Shown here in pieces: positions 710-40,444 of a stretch of 64,000 nucleotides of DNA (positions are counted from its first letter, which is position 1; the number at the start of each line of letters is the position of its first letter). This DNA comes from Candidatus Tectimicrobiota bacterium (GTDB taxonomy: Bacteria > JACPUC01), in contig JACPUC010000007.1 of assembly GCA_016192455.1 (NCBI GenBank), positions 1-64,000 of the forward strand, read 5' to 3'. The notes beneath the pieces are model-generated. The model did not search any database, was not told where the DNA came from, and was given only the letters and a program-made list of their open reading frames with translations. Both the position numbers and the translations under genes were made by a program.

Positions 710-1801
710 ATGAATCGTCGCGGGCGCGCGCTCAGCTTTTGTGGCGCGGTGGTTCTGATCATGGCAGGCGCGCTCTCGGCTCCCCAGGCGGGCGCCGAGG
801 AGTTTGATCCGGCTCAGATCCTCACGGTGCTGCCGAAGGATGCGATTCCCGCCATTCTCGCGCCGGAGATGGTGCCGGCTGGGAAGGTCGGGGGAACCCT
901 GACGGCGGAGAGCATGGTGCTGGGCGTGGCGCTGAACGGCGATAGCCGCGCCTATCCCCTCCCCATCCTGAGCCGGCACGAGATCGTCAACGATGTGGTG
1001 GGAGGATGGAAGATCGCCGTCACCTGGTGACCCCTCTGCTTCACGGGCATCGTGTATGACCGTATGATCGGGGGACGCGAGTACACCTTCGGCGTCAGCG
1101 GCAAGCTCCACGCCAACTCGCTCATCATGTACGATCACCAGACGGAGAGCCTCTGGAGTCACCTGCTGGGACGGGCCGTGACGGGCAAGCTCGCCGGCGC
1201 GAACCTGCGCGTGGTGCCGGCGCTGCAGACGACGTGGGGGGTGTGGCGGTCGATGCATCCGGACACCCTCGTCCTGCACCAGAAGCGCTCGGGCATCTTC
1301 TCCAGCCTGCGCGATCCGTATGCGAGCTACTACCTGTCGGGGGACACGGGCATCGTTCCCGTGCAGCGCTCGGACTCCCGCGTCGCTGCCAAGGCCTACG
1401 TCATTGGCGTGCGCCTCGGCGGCAGCGTCAAGGCCTACCCGTTTCCGGTCCTCAACGATCATCCCGTGGTGAATGACGAGGTGGCGGCGACGCCGATCGT
1501 CGTCACCTTCCTCAAGGGCGAGGCCAGCGGCGCGGTGTTTGATCGACGCGCCGCCGGCGCAACCCTTACGTTCGAGGTGTTCCGGCAGGGGAGCAGGGCA
1601 GGGGAGGACGGCGTCCTGCAGCTCCGCGATCAGCAGACGAAGAGCCTCTGGCACCCACTCAGCGGCAAAGCTCTCAGCGGCCCCCTCGCCGGCACGCGGC
1701 TCACCCTCATCCCGACCACCCAGTCGTTCTGGTTCGGCTGGGTAGACCACTACCCCGAAACAGCGGTCTATGCGCCCATCCCCAAGGAGGCCGGCCGCTG
1801 A
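710..1801 (+). CDS. DUF3179-family secreted protein with in-frame TGA, probable selenoprotein
   Basis: ATG 710 follows AAGGGGAGG. Residues 1-28 form a signal peptide, so the protein is likely exported. The frame runs to 1801 (363 residues) with a single TGA at 1028-1030, codon 107. DUF3179 proteins carry a conserved VTYCPLC motif; here it reads VTW-TGA-PLC followed by FTGIVYDR, so the TGA sits exactly on the first Cys. Coding similarity continues unbroken after it (FGVSGKLHANSLIMYD, DHQTESLW, HPDTLVL). A second, degenerate DUF3179-like repeat follows (VVTFLKGEASGAVFDR, DQQTKSLWHPLSGKAL). A hairpin with a GG-starting loop lies 16 nt after the TGA. I read codon 107 as selenocysteine, giving a U-P-L-C redox pair with Cys110. 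Alternative: a point-mutated pseudogene. The biochemical role of DUF3179 is not established. Confidence 0.8.
1028..1060 (+). promoter_or_regulatory. Candidate bacterial SECIS element for the DUF3179 gene
   Basis: After TGA 1028-1030, CACG (1042-1045) pairs with CGTG (1051-1054) around the loop GGCAT. The loop starts 16 nt after the TGA with G in its first two positions. This fits the general bacterial SECIS pattern (loop about 16-37 nt after UGA, early conserved G). The lower stem is weak, with interrupted T-A and C-G pairs only. Confidence 0.5.
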
Positions 1802-2016: not shown

Positions 2017-3030
2017 ATGAGCACCACACCCTACCTTACGACGCGCGAGGTGGCCGAGCTGTTGCGCATCCATGAGAAGCAGGTCTACGCCCTCATCAAG
2101 GCCGGCGCCATCCCCTGCACGCGCGTCACGGGCAAGTGGCTCTTCCCGCGCCGTCTCGTCGATGAGTGGCTGGTGACCTCGAGCGCCCGACGGGGCGCGC
2201 CGCCGCCCACCGCGGCGCGGCAGACGTTGCTCATAGCGGGCAGCGATGACCTGCTGCTGAGCTCCCTGCCGTCTCTGCTGCGCCGGCAGGCGCCCGGCTT
2301 CATCCTCGGCTGGGCCTGCCTGGGAAGCATCGGAGGGCTGTACGCGCTGCGCGACGGCGCGGTGCACGTGGCCGGCTGCCACCTCGATGCCGCGGCGGCG
2401 GGTGACATCCCCCTGGAAGGCGGTTCCGGAGACCGGGGCCCTTCCCAACCGGCGCGGCGCAGCCTGCCGGGTCAGCAGGCGGCGCCTGGGACGGTCAGCG
2501 GCACGCAGGACTATGCCCGGCGCCTGCTGGCAGGGGAGGCGACGCTGGCCGTCACCTTTGCCGAGCGCTGCCAGGGGTGGATCGTCGCCCGTGGCAACCC
2601 GAAGAGGATCGCCAGGGTGGCGGACCTGGTCCGCCGCGAGGTGCGTCTGGTCAATCGCCAGGAGGGGTCGGGAACACGGCTCCTGCTCGAGCGCTGCCTG
2701 CGCGAGGCCGGCCTGGAGCGGCGGCGCCTGCGCGGGGCGGAGCGCGAGGTGAGCACCCACCTCGAGGTCGCGATGGCGGTGGCACGGGGGGAGGCGGACG
2801 TCGCCCTCGGGACGGAAGCCGCCGCCGCCGCGCTGCGCCTCGATTTCGTGCCCCTCGCGCGGGAGCGCTACCAGCTCATCATGCAGCGCCGAACCCTGGA
2901 GTTGCCGTCCGTGCAAGCTCTCCTCGAGGTGCTCCGGTCGAGTGCCTTCGCCCGCCTGGCGCGCAGTCTCCCCGGCTACAGCGCGCAAGCCGCCGGCAGC
3001 GTCTGCTGGGAGAACCCTGGTGAAGCCTGA
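2017..3030 (+). CDS. HTH/periplasmic-binding-fold one-component regulator, likely tungstate/molybdate-responsive
   Basis: 337 residues. Residues about 5-50 form an excisionase/MerR-type helix-turn-helix (LTTREVAELLRIHEKQVYAL). Residues about 70-325 are a cytoplasmic PBP-like domain of the PF12727 type found in molybdate-sensing proteins, with the diagnostic VNRQEGSGTRLLL near residue 211. The gene overlaps the start of tupA by 11 nt. Family knowledge and context suggest that it binds the oxyanion in the cytoplasm and controls the importer, in place of a ModE protein. Middle residues 130-165 are low-complexity. The ligand (W or Mo) is inferred, not shown. Confidence 0.78.
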   Translation: MSTTPYLTTREVAELLRIHEKQVYALIKAGAIPCTRVTGKWLFPRRLVDEWLVTSSARRGAPPPTAARQTLLIAGSDDLLLSSLPSLLRRQAPGFILGWACLGSIGGLYALRDGAVHVAGCHLDAAAAGDIPLEGGSGDRGPSQPARRSLPGQQAAPGTVSGTQDYARRLLAGEATLAVTFAERCQGWIVARGNPKRIARVADLVRREVRLVNRQEGSGTRLLLERCLREAGLERRRLRGAEREVSTHLEVAMAVARGEADVALGTEAAAAALRLDFVPLARERYQLIMQRRTLELPSVQALLEVLRSSAFARLARSLPGYSAQAAGSVCWENPGEA

Positions 3031-3874
3031 AGCTCACCTGAGACTCGCCGGCAAGCAGGTGTGGCGAGCGTTCCTGCTCTTCGCCCTCCTCACCCTTCTC
3101 CTCGGCTCGCACAGCGCTGCCGCGCCGAATGCCCAACGCCTGCGCCTGGCGACCACCACGTCGACGGAGAACTCGGGGCTCTTGGCCGTCCTCCTGCCCC
3201 CCTTCGAGCGCCAGAGCGGTCTGCGCGTGGACGTCATCGCGGTGGGCACGGGCAAGGCGCTGAAGCTGGCGGAACGGGGCGACGTGGATGTCGTCCTCGT
3301 GCATGCGCCGCAGGCCGAGGAGGCGTTCATGGCCGCGGGCTTCGGGGTGAATCGCCGCGCCGTGATGGTGAACGACTTCGTCATCCTGGGCCCGCCGGCT
3401 GATGCCGCCGGCACCCGCAGTCTGCGTCAGGGCGCGGAGGCGCTGCGGAAGATCGTCGGCGCGGCCAGCCCGTTCGTGTCTCGCGGCGATGAGTCCGGCA
3501 CTCACCAGCGCGAGAAAGCCCTCTGGAAGGCAGCCGGGATTGAGCCGCGCGGCGCTTGGTACCTGTCGATCGGCCGCGGCATGGGCGAGAGCCTCATGCT
3601 CGCCAACGAGAAGCGCGCCTACGTCCTGACCGACCGGGGCACCTACCTCGCGTATCGGGGACGGCTCGACCTCGCGGTGCTGGTGGAGGGCGACGCGGCG
3701 CTCCTCAATCCCTACAGCATCATCGCCGTCAACCCGGCGCGGCACCGGCAGGCGAACTATCGGGGCGCTATGGCGCTCATCGCCTGGGTAACCTCGGTGG
3801 AGGGGCAGGAGGTGATCCGCGGCTTGCGGCGTTTCGGGCAACCGTTGTTCACGCCGACGGCGGTGCCGGAGTGA
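3020..3874 (+). CDS. tupA: Tungstate ABC transporter, substrate-binding protein
   Basis: 284 residues from GTG 3020, chosen because GGGAGA lies just upstream and the start overlaps the regulator's end. Residues 1-35 are a signal peptide or anchor (FLLFALLTLLLGS). The oxyanion-binding signature ATTTSTENSGLL follows near residue 43, and DESGTHQREKALW near 157 is typical of TupA. TupA captures tungstate in the periplasm with very high affinity for delivery to W-cofactor enzymes. It is directly followed by tupB. Related WtpA/ModA proteins lack the TTTSTENSG signature, so TupA is the best call. Confidence 0.9.
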   Translation: MKPEAHLRLAGKQVWRAFLLFALLTLLLGSHSAAAPNAQRLRLATTTSTENSGLLAVLLPPFERQSGLRVDVIAVGTGKALKLAERGDVDVVLVHAPQAEEAFMAAGFGVNRRAVMVNDFVILGPPADAAGTRSLRQGAEALRKIVGAASPFVSRGDESGTHQREKALWKAAGIEPRGAWYLSIGRGMGESLMLANEKRAYVLTDRGTYLAYRGRLDLAVLVEGDAALLNPYSIIAVNPARHRQANYRGAMALIAWVTSVEGQEVIRGLRRFGQPLFTPTAVPE

Positions 3875-3887
3875 GCCGAGGACGGCC

Positions 3888-4592
3888 ATGGAGTTTCTTT
3901 GGGAGGCCATCGTCCAAGCGCTGCGGCTCGTCGCGGCGGGCGACCGGGAGCTCCTCGAGGTGACCGTTCTTTCCTTGCAGCTCTCGACCGCCGCCACGCT
4001 CTTCGCCTCCCTCCTCGGAGTTCCCCTGGGATTCGCGCTGGCGGCCACGCGCTTTCGCGGCCGCCGTCTCCTCCTCACCATGGTGAATAGCCTGCTGGGC
4101 CTGCCGACGGTGGTCATCGGGCTGCTTGGCTTCGCGTTCCTGTCGCGCCAGGGTCCCCTCGGCGCTTGGGGTCTGCTCTTCACCCCGACGGCCATTGTCC
4201 TCGGCGGCACAGTCCTCAGCCTTCCCATCATCGCCGCCTTGACGGCCAGCGCGGTGATGGGGCTGGATGCGCGGGTGCGCGACACAGCCCTCACCCTGGG
4301 GGCGGGGCGGTGGGCCGCGGTGGCGACGCTCCTGGCCGAAGCGCGCTTCGCGGTGATGGCGGCGTTGATCACCGGGTACGGGCGGCTGATCAGCGAGGTC
4401 GGCGTGTCGATGATCCTGGGGGGGAACATCCGCGGCTACACCCGCACCCTGACCACCGCCATAGCCCTGGAGACGAGCAAGGGTGACTTCGCCTTCGCCA
4501 TGGCGCTGGGAATTCTCCTGATGGCGATCGTCTTCTCGTTGAACCTCCTCCTTGGGCGTCTGCAGGGCGAGGGGAGAGGGCGGAGAGGGTGA
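3888..4592 (+). CDS. tupB: Tungstate ABC transporter, permease
   Basis: 234 residues, 13 nt after tupA. Hydrophobic throughout with about five to six membrane segments (VLSLQLSTAATLFASLLGV, VVIGLLGFAFL, IVLGGTVLSLPIIAALTASAV, GILLMAIVFSLNLLL). The cytoplasmic EAA loop is seen around ALTLGAGRWAAVATLLAEAR, and GYGRLISEVGVSMILGGN matches TupB/ModB-type permeases. It forms the inner-membrane channel for TupA and TupC. The ATPase gene is displaced about 450 bp downstream by repeats. Confidence 0.88.
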   Translation: MEFLWEAIVQALRLVAAGDRELLEVTVLSLQLSTAATLFASLLGVPLGFALAATRFRGRRLLLTMVNSLLGLPTVVIGLLGFAFLSRQGPLGAWGLLFTPTAIVLGGTVLSLPIIAALTASAVMGLDARVRDTALTLGAGRWAAVATLLAEARFAVMAALITGYGRLISEVGVSMILGGNIRGYTRTLTTAIALETSKGDFAFAMALGILLMAIVFSLNLLLGRLQGEGRGRRG

Positions 4593-4648
4593 GAGATTGC
4601 TTCCCCAGCACGCTCCTCGTTCGGTTCTCGGTAACGTGGAGTGTTCAG

Positions 4649-4696
4649 AGGCAGTTCGCGATGGGCCCGCGGCCCGCCCGCAAGGTCATGGAAAGA
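4649..4696 (-). repeat. Dispersed ~48-bp repeat, copy C
   Basis: On the minus strand it reads CTTTCCATGACCTTGCGGGC and further on GCGAACTGCC, the same pattern as copies A (178-225) and B (441-488), in opposite orientation. Confidence 0.6.
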
Positions 4697-4701
4697 AATT
4701 G

Positions 4702-4918
4702 AACCGCTAAGACGCGGAGGGCACAGAGAAGGTAAGGGAGGGGCGGTTCGCGAACCGCCCCGGCCATCGGCATACAAGGAACCACGGATGAACACTGATG
4801 GACACTGATATCTGTGTGCATCCGTGTCCATCAGTGGTTCCTTCCCCTATCTTCTCCGCGCTCTCTGCGTCTCCGCGGTGTAATTTATTGAACCGCGGAG
4901 ACGCAGAGAACGCAGAGG
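4702..4918. repeat. Nest of intergenic palindromic repeats between tupB and tupC
   Basis: The intergenic stretch 4593-5040 is gene-free and packed with repeats. GAACCGCTAAGACGCGGAGG (from 4702) and AACCGCGGAGACGCAGAGAA (from 4891) are direct copies of a repeat common in environmental bacteria, and 4851-4879 is an inverted copy. A perfect 20-nt palindrome (GGGCGGTTCG plus its complement) lies at 4741-4760. Positions 4778-4841 form a long hairpin with 32-bp arms pairing at about 27 positions, starting GGAACCACGGATGAACAC. Confidence 0.75.
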
Positions 4919-5040
4919 CGAAGGACACCGGTCGCGCGACCGTCAGCTTCACCATCACGTCAAATCAACCACGTAGACGCTTATTTTCTAAGCAGAGGTT
5001 GGCGGTCGGCCGCGGCTCGGCGGGGAAGGAAGGAACGCTC

Positions 5041-5769
5041 TTGAAGAACGCCGGCGGGGATGAGGAAGCGGCGCGCGACAGCCTGCTCTACGAGCTGCGA
5101 GGGGTGCGGCAGCAGTACGGCGAGGTGGTGGTCCTCGACATCCCGGCCCTCGGCTTTACCGCCGGGGGGGTCACGGCGCTCCTCGGCCCGAATGGCGCCG
5201 GCAAGACCACCCTGCTGCGGCTCCTGGCCGGACTTGACGTCCCAAGCCGCGGCGCCGTCGCGTTCCACGGGACCGGCCTCGGCTCGACTCCGGCGCGCGC
5301 CGCGCTGCGCCGCCGCGTCACCTTCGTGCACCAGCAGCCCTACCTCTTCCACGCCAGCGTCGGCGCCAACGTGGGCTATGGCTTAAAGCAGCGCGGCATA
5401 CGCGGCAGGGTCTTGGGCGCGAGGGTGGAGCAGGCGCTGCGGAGGGTCGATCTGGACGGCTTGGCGCAGCGCCGCGCCCAGGGTCTCTCCGCCGGCGAGG
5501 GGCAGCGCGTCGCCCTGGCGCGGGCCCTGGCCCTCGAGCCGGAGGTGCTCCTCCTCGACGAACCGACCGCCCATGCCGATCGCGACACCTTCACGGTGAT
5601 CAAGCAGGTGATTGCCCAAGCCGCGGAGCTTGGCGCGACGGTCATCCTCGCCTCGCACGACCACGAGCTGGTCGCCGGGCTGGCGCGGCGGCGCCTCGAG
5701 ATGGCCTACGGGCGGCTGGTGGCAACGGCGGAGGGGCTGCTGGCGCATCCTTCGGCGCCGCGTGGATGA
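5041..5769 (+). CDS. tupC: Tungstate ABC transporter, ATP-binding protein
   Basis: 242 residues from TTG 5041, chosen because GGAAGGAA precedes it and upstream frame is repeat DNA. Walker A GPNGAGKTT is near residue 50, the signature is LSAGEGQR near 148 (A replaces the usual second G of LSGGQ), Walker B LLLDEPTAHAD is near 170 and the switch His is in ASHDHEL near 204. It powers TupB. The separation from tupB means transcription must read through the repeat nest or start anew; I found no convincing promoter there. Confidence 0.87.
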   Translation: MKNAGGDEEAARDSLLYELRGVRQQYGEVVVLDIPALGFTAGGVTALLGPNGAGKTTLLRLLAGLDVPSRGAVAFHGTGLGSTPARAALRRRVTFVHQQPYLFHASVGANVGYGLKQRGIRGRVLGARVEQALRRVDLDGLAQRRAQGLSAGEGQRVALARALALEPEVLLLDEPTAHADRDTFTVIKQVIAQAAELGATVILASHDHELVAGLARRRLEMAYGRLVATAEGLLAHPSAPRG

Positions 5770-17973: not shown

Positions 17974-18537
17974 TTAGAAGTACTTCTCCGCCAATCCCCA
18001 CTCCTGCAGATCGTCTTCGAACTTCAGCGCCCTCGCCAGGTTGTTGGTGACGAACGACAGCAGCACCGGGCTCATCGCCTCGACGATCTCCGCATCCCCC
18101 AGGCCGTGCGCCCGCAGCGCGGCGATGTCTTCCTTGTCGATCGCGGCGGCATCAGCCGCCATTTTGCGGGCGAACGTCACCAAGGTCTGCTCCAGAGGGG
18201 TGAGACCTTCCAGGCTCTCACCACCGCGCATCTTCCGCACCTGCTCCTTCTCGAGTCCGAACTCCTGAACCAGGAAGTTTGAGTGCCCGCCCGCTCAGTA
18301 GGCGCAGCCGTGCACCGTGGAGGCGGCCACGAACATGAGCTCCTTGATCTTCTGTCCCAGCTTCCCCTCTTTCATGAAGGCCGGGTACATCGCGCCGATG
18401 GCCCGCAGGAGGGGATCGTACTGGGCGGCCATGCGCCGCACGAGGGTCGGCCGTCCGTGCATCTTCTCAAAGAACGTGATGCTCTGCCGCAGCTCCGGTG
18501 ACATCTTCTCCGCATCCGCATAAGGGATGAGCGCCAT
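17974..18537 (-). CDS. AhpD-like (carboxymuconolactone decarboxylase family) protein with in-frame TGA, probable selenoprotein
   Basis: 187 residues from ATG 18537 (RBS GAGAGGAGGG). The frame runs through one TGA at 18297-18295, codon 81, and ends at 17974. AhpD-type proteins carry CxxCxxxH; here it reads C78-A-Y-(TGA)81-A-G-G-H85, so TGA replaces the second Cys, the reactive thiol next to the His. Family similarity continues on both sides (EKMHGRPTLVRRMA before; HSNFLVQEFGLEKEQVRKMR after). AhpD-like selenoproteins are known in bacteria. Likely a cytoplasmic peroxidase or thiol-disulfide enzyme. A good SECIS-like hairpin follows the TGA. Alternative: a pseudogene with a Cys-to-stop change. 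Confidence 0.85.
18260..18297 (-). promoter_or_regulatory. Candidate bacterial SECIS element for the AhpD-like gene
   Basis: On the minus strand, after the TGA, TTCCTG-GTT-CAGGAG forms a hairpin (18276-18262): five Watson-Crick pairs and a G-U, extendable by two A-T pairs past a bulged C. The loop lies about 24 nt after the TGA and opens with GG (GGTT), resembling the GGUC loop of E. coli fdhF. Confidence 0.62.
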
Positions 18538-18775
18538 TTCAACCCTCCTCTCCGAAGTGGGATCTCCCAGCCATGGAATGGAAGATGTTCGCTGTTGCTT
18601 CAATCAGAAGGGGTGGGGCAAGAGGCCGGCCCATGGCCGACCTGCGCGAGAGTAGTGCGTTGCTCTCGCGTCCAGGCACGTGAAGGTGTGAAGCCGCCGC
18701 GGTCGAGTGGGGGGTCCGGGCGTGGCGCGAGGAGACGAGCAACGGCTCGTCCCCTCCTCTGCGGGGAGAGAAGCT

Positions 18776-40110: not shown

Positions 40111-40241
40111 ACCAACCTTCGGGGCTGGGTGAAATTCCCGACCGGCGGTGACAGCCCGCGACCCATAAGGGCTTCGACCCGAGTGGCTGATCCGGTGCAA
40201 CTCCGGGGCCGACAGTAAGAGTCTGGATGGGAGAAGGTTCG
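40111..40241 (+). ncRNA. FMN riboswitch (RFN element)
   Basis: Contains the conserved blocks CTTCGGGGCTGGGTGAAATT, CCCGACCGGCGGTGACAGCC, GATCCGGTGCAACTCCGG and CCGACAGTAAGAGTCTGGAT, closed by GGGAGAAGG. Order and spacing match the six-helix FMN aptamer. It precedes ribD and should lower expression of the rib genes when FMN is plentiful. The ~200 nt between aptamer and ribD (40242-40444) hold the expression platform; I could not pick out a single clear terminator. Confidence 0.96.
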
Positions 40242-40444
40242 GTACACGTTGCCAGCGCGCTCCGCCTGGGCTGCACCTGGGGGCTCCGCCACAAGCTGCT
40301 CCGCCGAGCTGCTGTGGGGGTGCGAGGTGCAGGCCATGCCGCCGGGAGTGCGCCCTTCCTCTACGTGTCCCTCCGCACAGAACCTGTGCGTCTCTCCCAT
40401 CGAGATCGTTCTTTGGTTGCTGTAGCGTGCAGGCCGGGCAGCCG

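Follow-up and report, generated by a model that had tools for sequence, protein, structure and literature searches.

The window analysed here comprises the first 64,000 nucleotides of contig C3, which belongs to a genome of 4.46 Mb in 31 contigs. Near its beginning the window carries a gene for a DUF3179 protein that is interrupted by a TGA codon. The locus raises the question of whether this TGA ends a broken gene or is read as an amino acid and, in the latter case, what the protein may do. Our answer, to which we assign a probability of roughly 0.88, is that UGA 107 is decoded as selenocysteine (Sec) by the host's own machinery with the help of a downstream hairpin, and that the exported product most likely acts as an oxidoreductase working through Sec107 and Cys110, perhaps linked to peroxides.

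The frame lies at 710-1801 on the + strand, encodes 363 residues counting Sec and terminates in TGA (1799-1801). As the initial annotation had described, it is open throughout except for a single internal TGA at 1028-1030, the codon of residue 107. A Shine-Dalgarno-like AAGGGGAGGGG (692-702, + strand), read directly off the sequence, stands 7 bases ahead of the ATG, and residues 1-29 (710-796, + strand), as read from the translation, form a candidate signal peptide in which a hydrophobic core is followed by AQAGA/EE; both signals, which had been called intact, are visible. Residues 43-351 matched the Pfam DUF3179 profile (PF11376) from position 1 to 292 of its 292 positions (E = 3.8e-86; 289.6 bits, where membership requires 27 bits and a full-profile match), and the family similarity claimed for either side of the TGA therefore extends from end to end. 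When the host genome itself was searched, the DUF3179 match fell at this very position and contained exactly one in-frame TGA. NCBIfam has no model for this protein, and a sequence search of the PDB found no relative. The motif at the TGA reads VTW-U-PLC and that of homologues (V/I)T(F/Y/W)CPLC, the U aligning with the first Cys, just as had been proposed. The putative partner of Sec107 is Cys110 (1037-1039, + strand), as the mature protein has no other Cys.

In draft assemblies a lone in-frame stop often marks a pseudogene or an error, and the TGA could accordingly be a true stop in a DUF3179 gene that is decaying or mis-sequenced. An exchange of U and C in this column, suggested earlier as a check, was indeed found: TGA occupies the identical column in about 30 DUF3179 homologues (30 rows) and Cys in 27, so that a TGA at residue 107 is not due to chance. 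Members with TGA in a good frame are L003, L007, L013, L014, L047-L055, L057, L075-L085, L088 and L099. Two divergent members with poorer frames, L018 and L023, carry UPLE and UPLQ and have extra stops in or near the frame; these genes may have decayed, or they may encode Sec forms that lack the partner Cys. Since the TGA is shared by about 30 independently assembled genomes, the reading as decay or error is largely refuted. Further frame breaks in close relatives, which would have pointed to a decaying gene, were absent from the window's own clade, where no additional stop occurs across more than 250 downstream codons. Compared with L048 and L049, codons both before and after the TGA differ mostly in their third positions, a pattern that is weaker downstream when L013 is compared, and the host genome has a complete set of Sec genes. 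We consider a decayed or mis-sequenced gene very improbable.

The distribution of TGA and Cys was followed on a maximum-likelihood tree of 57 DUF3179 proteins, in which L018 and L023 were included but carry little weight. The window protein belongs to a clade (support 100/100) whose 24 rows all carry TGA and which spans Myxococcota, Chloroflexota (L054), the phylum of genome G137 and the window's own phylum, of which the host genome was the sole representative among the genomes compared. Beyond this clade TGA occurs in at least four further places, adjoining Cys members, and the Sec/Cys column changed five times in all, two of these changes being forced by well-supported branches. The gene selA was detected in 13 of the 14 genomes of TGA members and in 2 of the 17 genomes of Cys members (Fisher p = 7e-6, which is only a guide because the genomes are related to one another). 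For selB the counts were 11 of 14, including one fragment that scored under the cut-off, and 3 of 17; those TGA-member genomes that miss selA or selB are draft genomes. In G151 (L054, Anaerolineales bin12), which has TGA in its DUF3179 gene, selA is full but only a selB start of 43 residues was seen, and selB may have been frameshifted or lost in this single-contig assembly.

The residue nine positions after the first position of the motif also follows the Sec/Cys state, being Tyr in 26 of 29 scored TGA rows and Phe in all 26 scored Cys rows. Shared descent accounts for part of this switch; judging from the sequences, it may also reflect a coding constraint, namely the need for an A in the 3' arm of a hairpin that follows the TGA.

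This bacterial SECIS-like hairpin lies at 1043-1063 on the + strand, with arms at 1043-1050 and 1056-1063 that contain one G.A mismatch (1047/1059). Its apical loop, CGUGU (5 nt, 1051-1055), begins 20 nt after the UGA and has G at its second position. The initial annotation had called for a SECIS check and had placed a loop starting with GG 16 nt downstream; a hairpin resembling a bacterial SECIS can form, but that loop and spacing were not reproduced. At -12.2 kcal/mol the structure fits the published bSECIS constraints, although in their loose form these also admit many GC-rich Cys homologues and do not discriminate alone. Its folding energy is ordinary for the composition (z = -0.22), and energy was for these two reasons dropped as evidence, so that the case for the hairpin rests on conservation and covariation rather than on stability. 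Among 19 distinct TGA homologues, 82% of hairpin cells are paired and the covariation score is 0.225, a value reached in none of 500 shuffles and in no slid register; four pairs show changes on both sides. Because the helix was picked from the TGA sequences, which favours it somewhat, the Cys homologues are the fairer control, and in the same columns these are 43% paired and indistinguishable from shuffles. The pairing is exemplified by GGCUAU-CGUGU-AUAGCC in L014 and GGGAGU-GGUCU-ACUCCC in L007.

All four Sec genes that had been proposed for a search were found in the host genome. A tRNA-Sec (selC) scored 75.5 bits (gathering score 47), selB 366 bits and selA 596 bits, the latter two adjoining on contig C23, and selD scored 389 bits and has a UGA of its own at the usual Cys/Sec site (AG-U-AAK). 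The presence of selC and selB also bears on a second possibility, that UGA is generally read as an amino acid in a variant code and nothing here is specific to Sec. Only the TGA itself speaks for such a code, to which we give next to no credence. The DUF3179 gene and six of eight other window genes checked terminate in TGA, which contradicts a general reassignment and implies that the meaning of UGA here depends on context; moreover, TGA homologues come from many phyla, always with the TGA at the first Cys of CPLC. Taken together, U/C exchange, selA, selB, selC and selD, and the SECIS-like hairpin support the original proposal of Sec at this Cys, and decoding of UGA 107 as Sec in an exported DUF3179 protein is, as far as sequence evidence goes, well supported.

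Several other genes of this host carry in-frame TGAs. Of 13 genomic matches to AhpC/TSA, eight have one or two, and in L102, the only one inspected, the TGA occupies the catalytic position (YRGLF-U-GDC). A second likely selenoprotein gene in the window (17977-18540, - strand; PF02627, E = 2e-10) is carboxymuconolactone-decarboxylase/AhpD-like, and its TGA (18295-18297) stands for the second Cys of CxxC in HGCAY-U-AGGH; CMD-like CxxU selenoproteins have already been catalogued (PMC9312934). The host genome may be unusually rich in selenoproteins. The window also contains an FMN riboswitch (RF00050, 110 bits) at 40111-40242 on the + strand.

The DUF3179 protein consists of two homologous repeats, residues 41-205 (830-1324, + strand) and 212-363 (1343-1798, + strand), which share 37% identity (BLASTP E = 2e-29; profile E = 2e-32). 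The active motif, U107-P-L-C110, is present in the first only, and the second has neither Sec nor Cys. AlphaFold2 gave a pLDDT of 90 both when the full protein was modelled and when repeat 1 was modelled by itself. Compared with Rieske-fold proteins, the model of repeat 1 gave a VIA Z of about 8.4 over 92 residues (rmsd 3.1) and that of repeat 2 a Z of 8.3 over 93 residues (rmsd 2.8). Both repeats independently matched ferredoxins, oxygenase N-domains and NirD, and each of the 50 matches in the repeat 1 list appears to be either a Rieske-type protein or NirD. Z values near 8 are no more than borderline significant, but the match lists are nearly pure in Rieske-fold proteins; Foldseek, run with the predicted models, gave E values of 0.06-0.1 and probabilities of 0.97-0.99. 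On these models each repeat is predicted to be Rieske-like, a first fold hypothesis for DUF3179. In neither repeat does the alignment show the [2Fe-2S] ligands CxH and CxxH, and the protein is therefore not a Rieske iron-sulfur protein. We also rejected the idea that U/CPLC is a Rieske box II in which His became Cys: the profile of repeat 1 aligned with genuine Rieske sequences without significance (E = 0.18), repeat 2 matched weakly and in a different register (E = 0.0046, probability 7.5%), and the structural ranges place the motif ahead of the first cluster loop. When repeat 1 was scanned against Pfam with E values up to 10 admitted, no Rieske model came up.

The predicted fold gives some weight to a third possibility, that the Sec site binds a metal, for instance through H90, Sec107 and Cys110, and serves to transfer electrons or handle metals rather than to carry out redox chemistry of the thiol type. 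H90, E91, N94 and D95, just ahead of the motif, are near-invariant, and multihaem cytochrome c genes occur occasionally nearby (L050, L052, L057). Against this, the Rieske ligands are missing, the register, which is approximate and comes from aligned ranges only, puts the motif on a hairpin ahead of the first cluster loop, and some Sec members have T, E or Q in place of the second Cys. We judge a metal site rather unlikely.

We therefore return to redox chemistry at the Sec-Cys pair. SelA, SelB, SelC and SelD of the host would decode UGA 107 as Sec, directed by the hairpin 20 nt downstream, and the exported protein would then cycle between the selenol and a Sec107-Cys110 selenenylsulfide. Sec107 and Cys110 are the only redox-active chalcogens (Se/S) of the mature protein, which fits such a cycle; the most likely activity is hence that of an extracytoplasmic (periplasmic) selenol/thiol oxidoreductase. 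To our knowledge, no enzyme activity has been reported for any DUF3179 protein. The second Cys is missing in some Sec members (UPLT in L007, as well as UPLE and UPLQ; a UTLC form also occurs), so that the pair is not universal.

The gene neighbourhood hints weakly at a wider role. An exported Sec-peroxiredoxin gene (AhpC/TSA, FYRGxWUPxC) lies directly upstream of the Sec-DUF3179 gene at three intact Myxococcota loci (L049, 4387-4974; L051, 3667-4281; L052, 3496-4137), and because of this the protein may help to deal with peroxides or oxidised thiols, perhaps in oxidant defence. At L072 an exported Sec AhpC/TSA gene stands beside a gene fragment, and in L051 another AhpC/TSA gene with TGA is located at 2886-3512. 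Apart from these three loci and the one fragment, no such neighbour was seen, and it is absent beside the window's own gene, upstream of which the contig ends. Directly downstream, at 2017-5769 on the + strand, are genes for a helix-turn-helix/PBP-like regulator, a periplasmic binding protein, a permease and an ATPase, a cluster that looks like a tungstate/molybdate-type ABC transporter. This cluster does not recur at related loci, and we found no conserved neighbourhood for the window's gene. It would be tempting, if somewhat doubtful, to see in these proteins a class of exported selenoenzymes that partner an exported Sec-peroxiredoxin, built of tandem Rieske-fold domains that lost their [2Fe-2S] ligands and gained a catalytic Sec/Cys pair elsewhere on the scaffold.

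These results add to the case for Sec in DUF3179 the same-column TGA in distant phyla, the hairpin covarying in Sec members only and the co-occurrence with selA, together with the Tyr/Phe switch that tracks Sec/Cys, a first fold hypothesis and a Sec-only clade that crosses several phyla. The function of the exported protein thereby becomes easier to test. A gene finder that halts at TGA would split such a gene into two annotated pieces.

A DUF3179 selenoprotein was reportedly described by Zhang and Gladyshev in 2007 from the delta symbiont of Olavius algarvensis. The hint that DUF3179 had yet to be established as a selenoprotein family was wrong, and our account corrects this claim of novelty: in two reviews (PMC9312934, PMC13188914) the prokaryotic selenoproteins include an entry "DUF3179 domain-containing protein, pfam11376, UxxC/T", with reference to Zhang & Gladyshev, Nucleic Acids Res 2007, 35:4952, so that the family is known and the window gene is a new member. 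With these selenoproteins, likened here from the review listings rather than from the 2007 sequences, it shares the Pfam family, the UxxC motif and a UGA in a Sec-using bacterium, and the UPLT seen in L007 agrees with the published "UxxC/T". It differs in its host lineage and in its clade, one of tandem-repeat proteins with Sec in all members sampled. The Cys-containing DUF3179 proteins (for example those of the Roseobacteraceae and Chloroflexota loci L056, L058-L070) share the domain and the invariant residues D44, I46, A81, E91, P108, L109, F127, G128, G131, L133, D142 and G159, but have CPLC for UPLC, Phe for Tyr nine residues on, and no conserved covarying SECIS-like hairpin. Rieske ferredoxins and NirD resemble each DUF3179 repeat in predicted fold; they differ in having the CxH...CxxH ligands, and the sequence-profile comparison was not significant. 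The bacterial Sec peroxiredoxins (AhpC/TSA, UxxC) are likewise exported, have UPxC and adjoin Sec-DUF3179 at the three Myxococcota loci, but they possess a thioredoxin fold and form a family unrelated to DUF3179.
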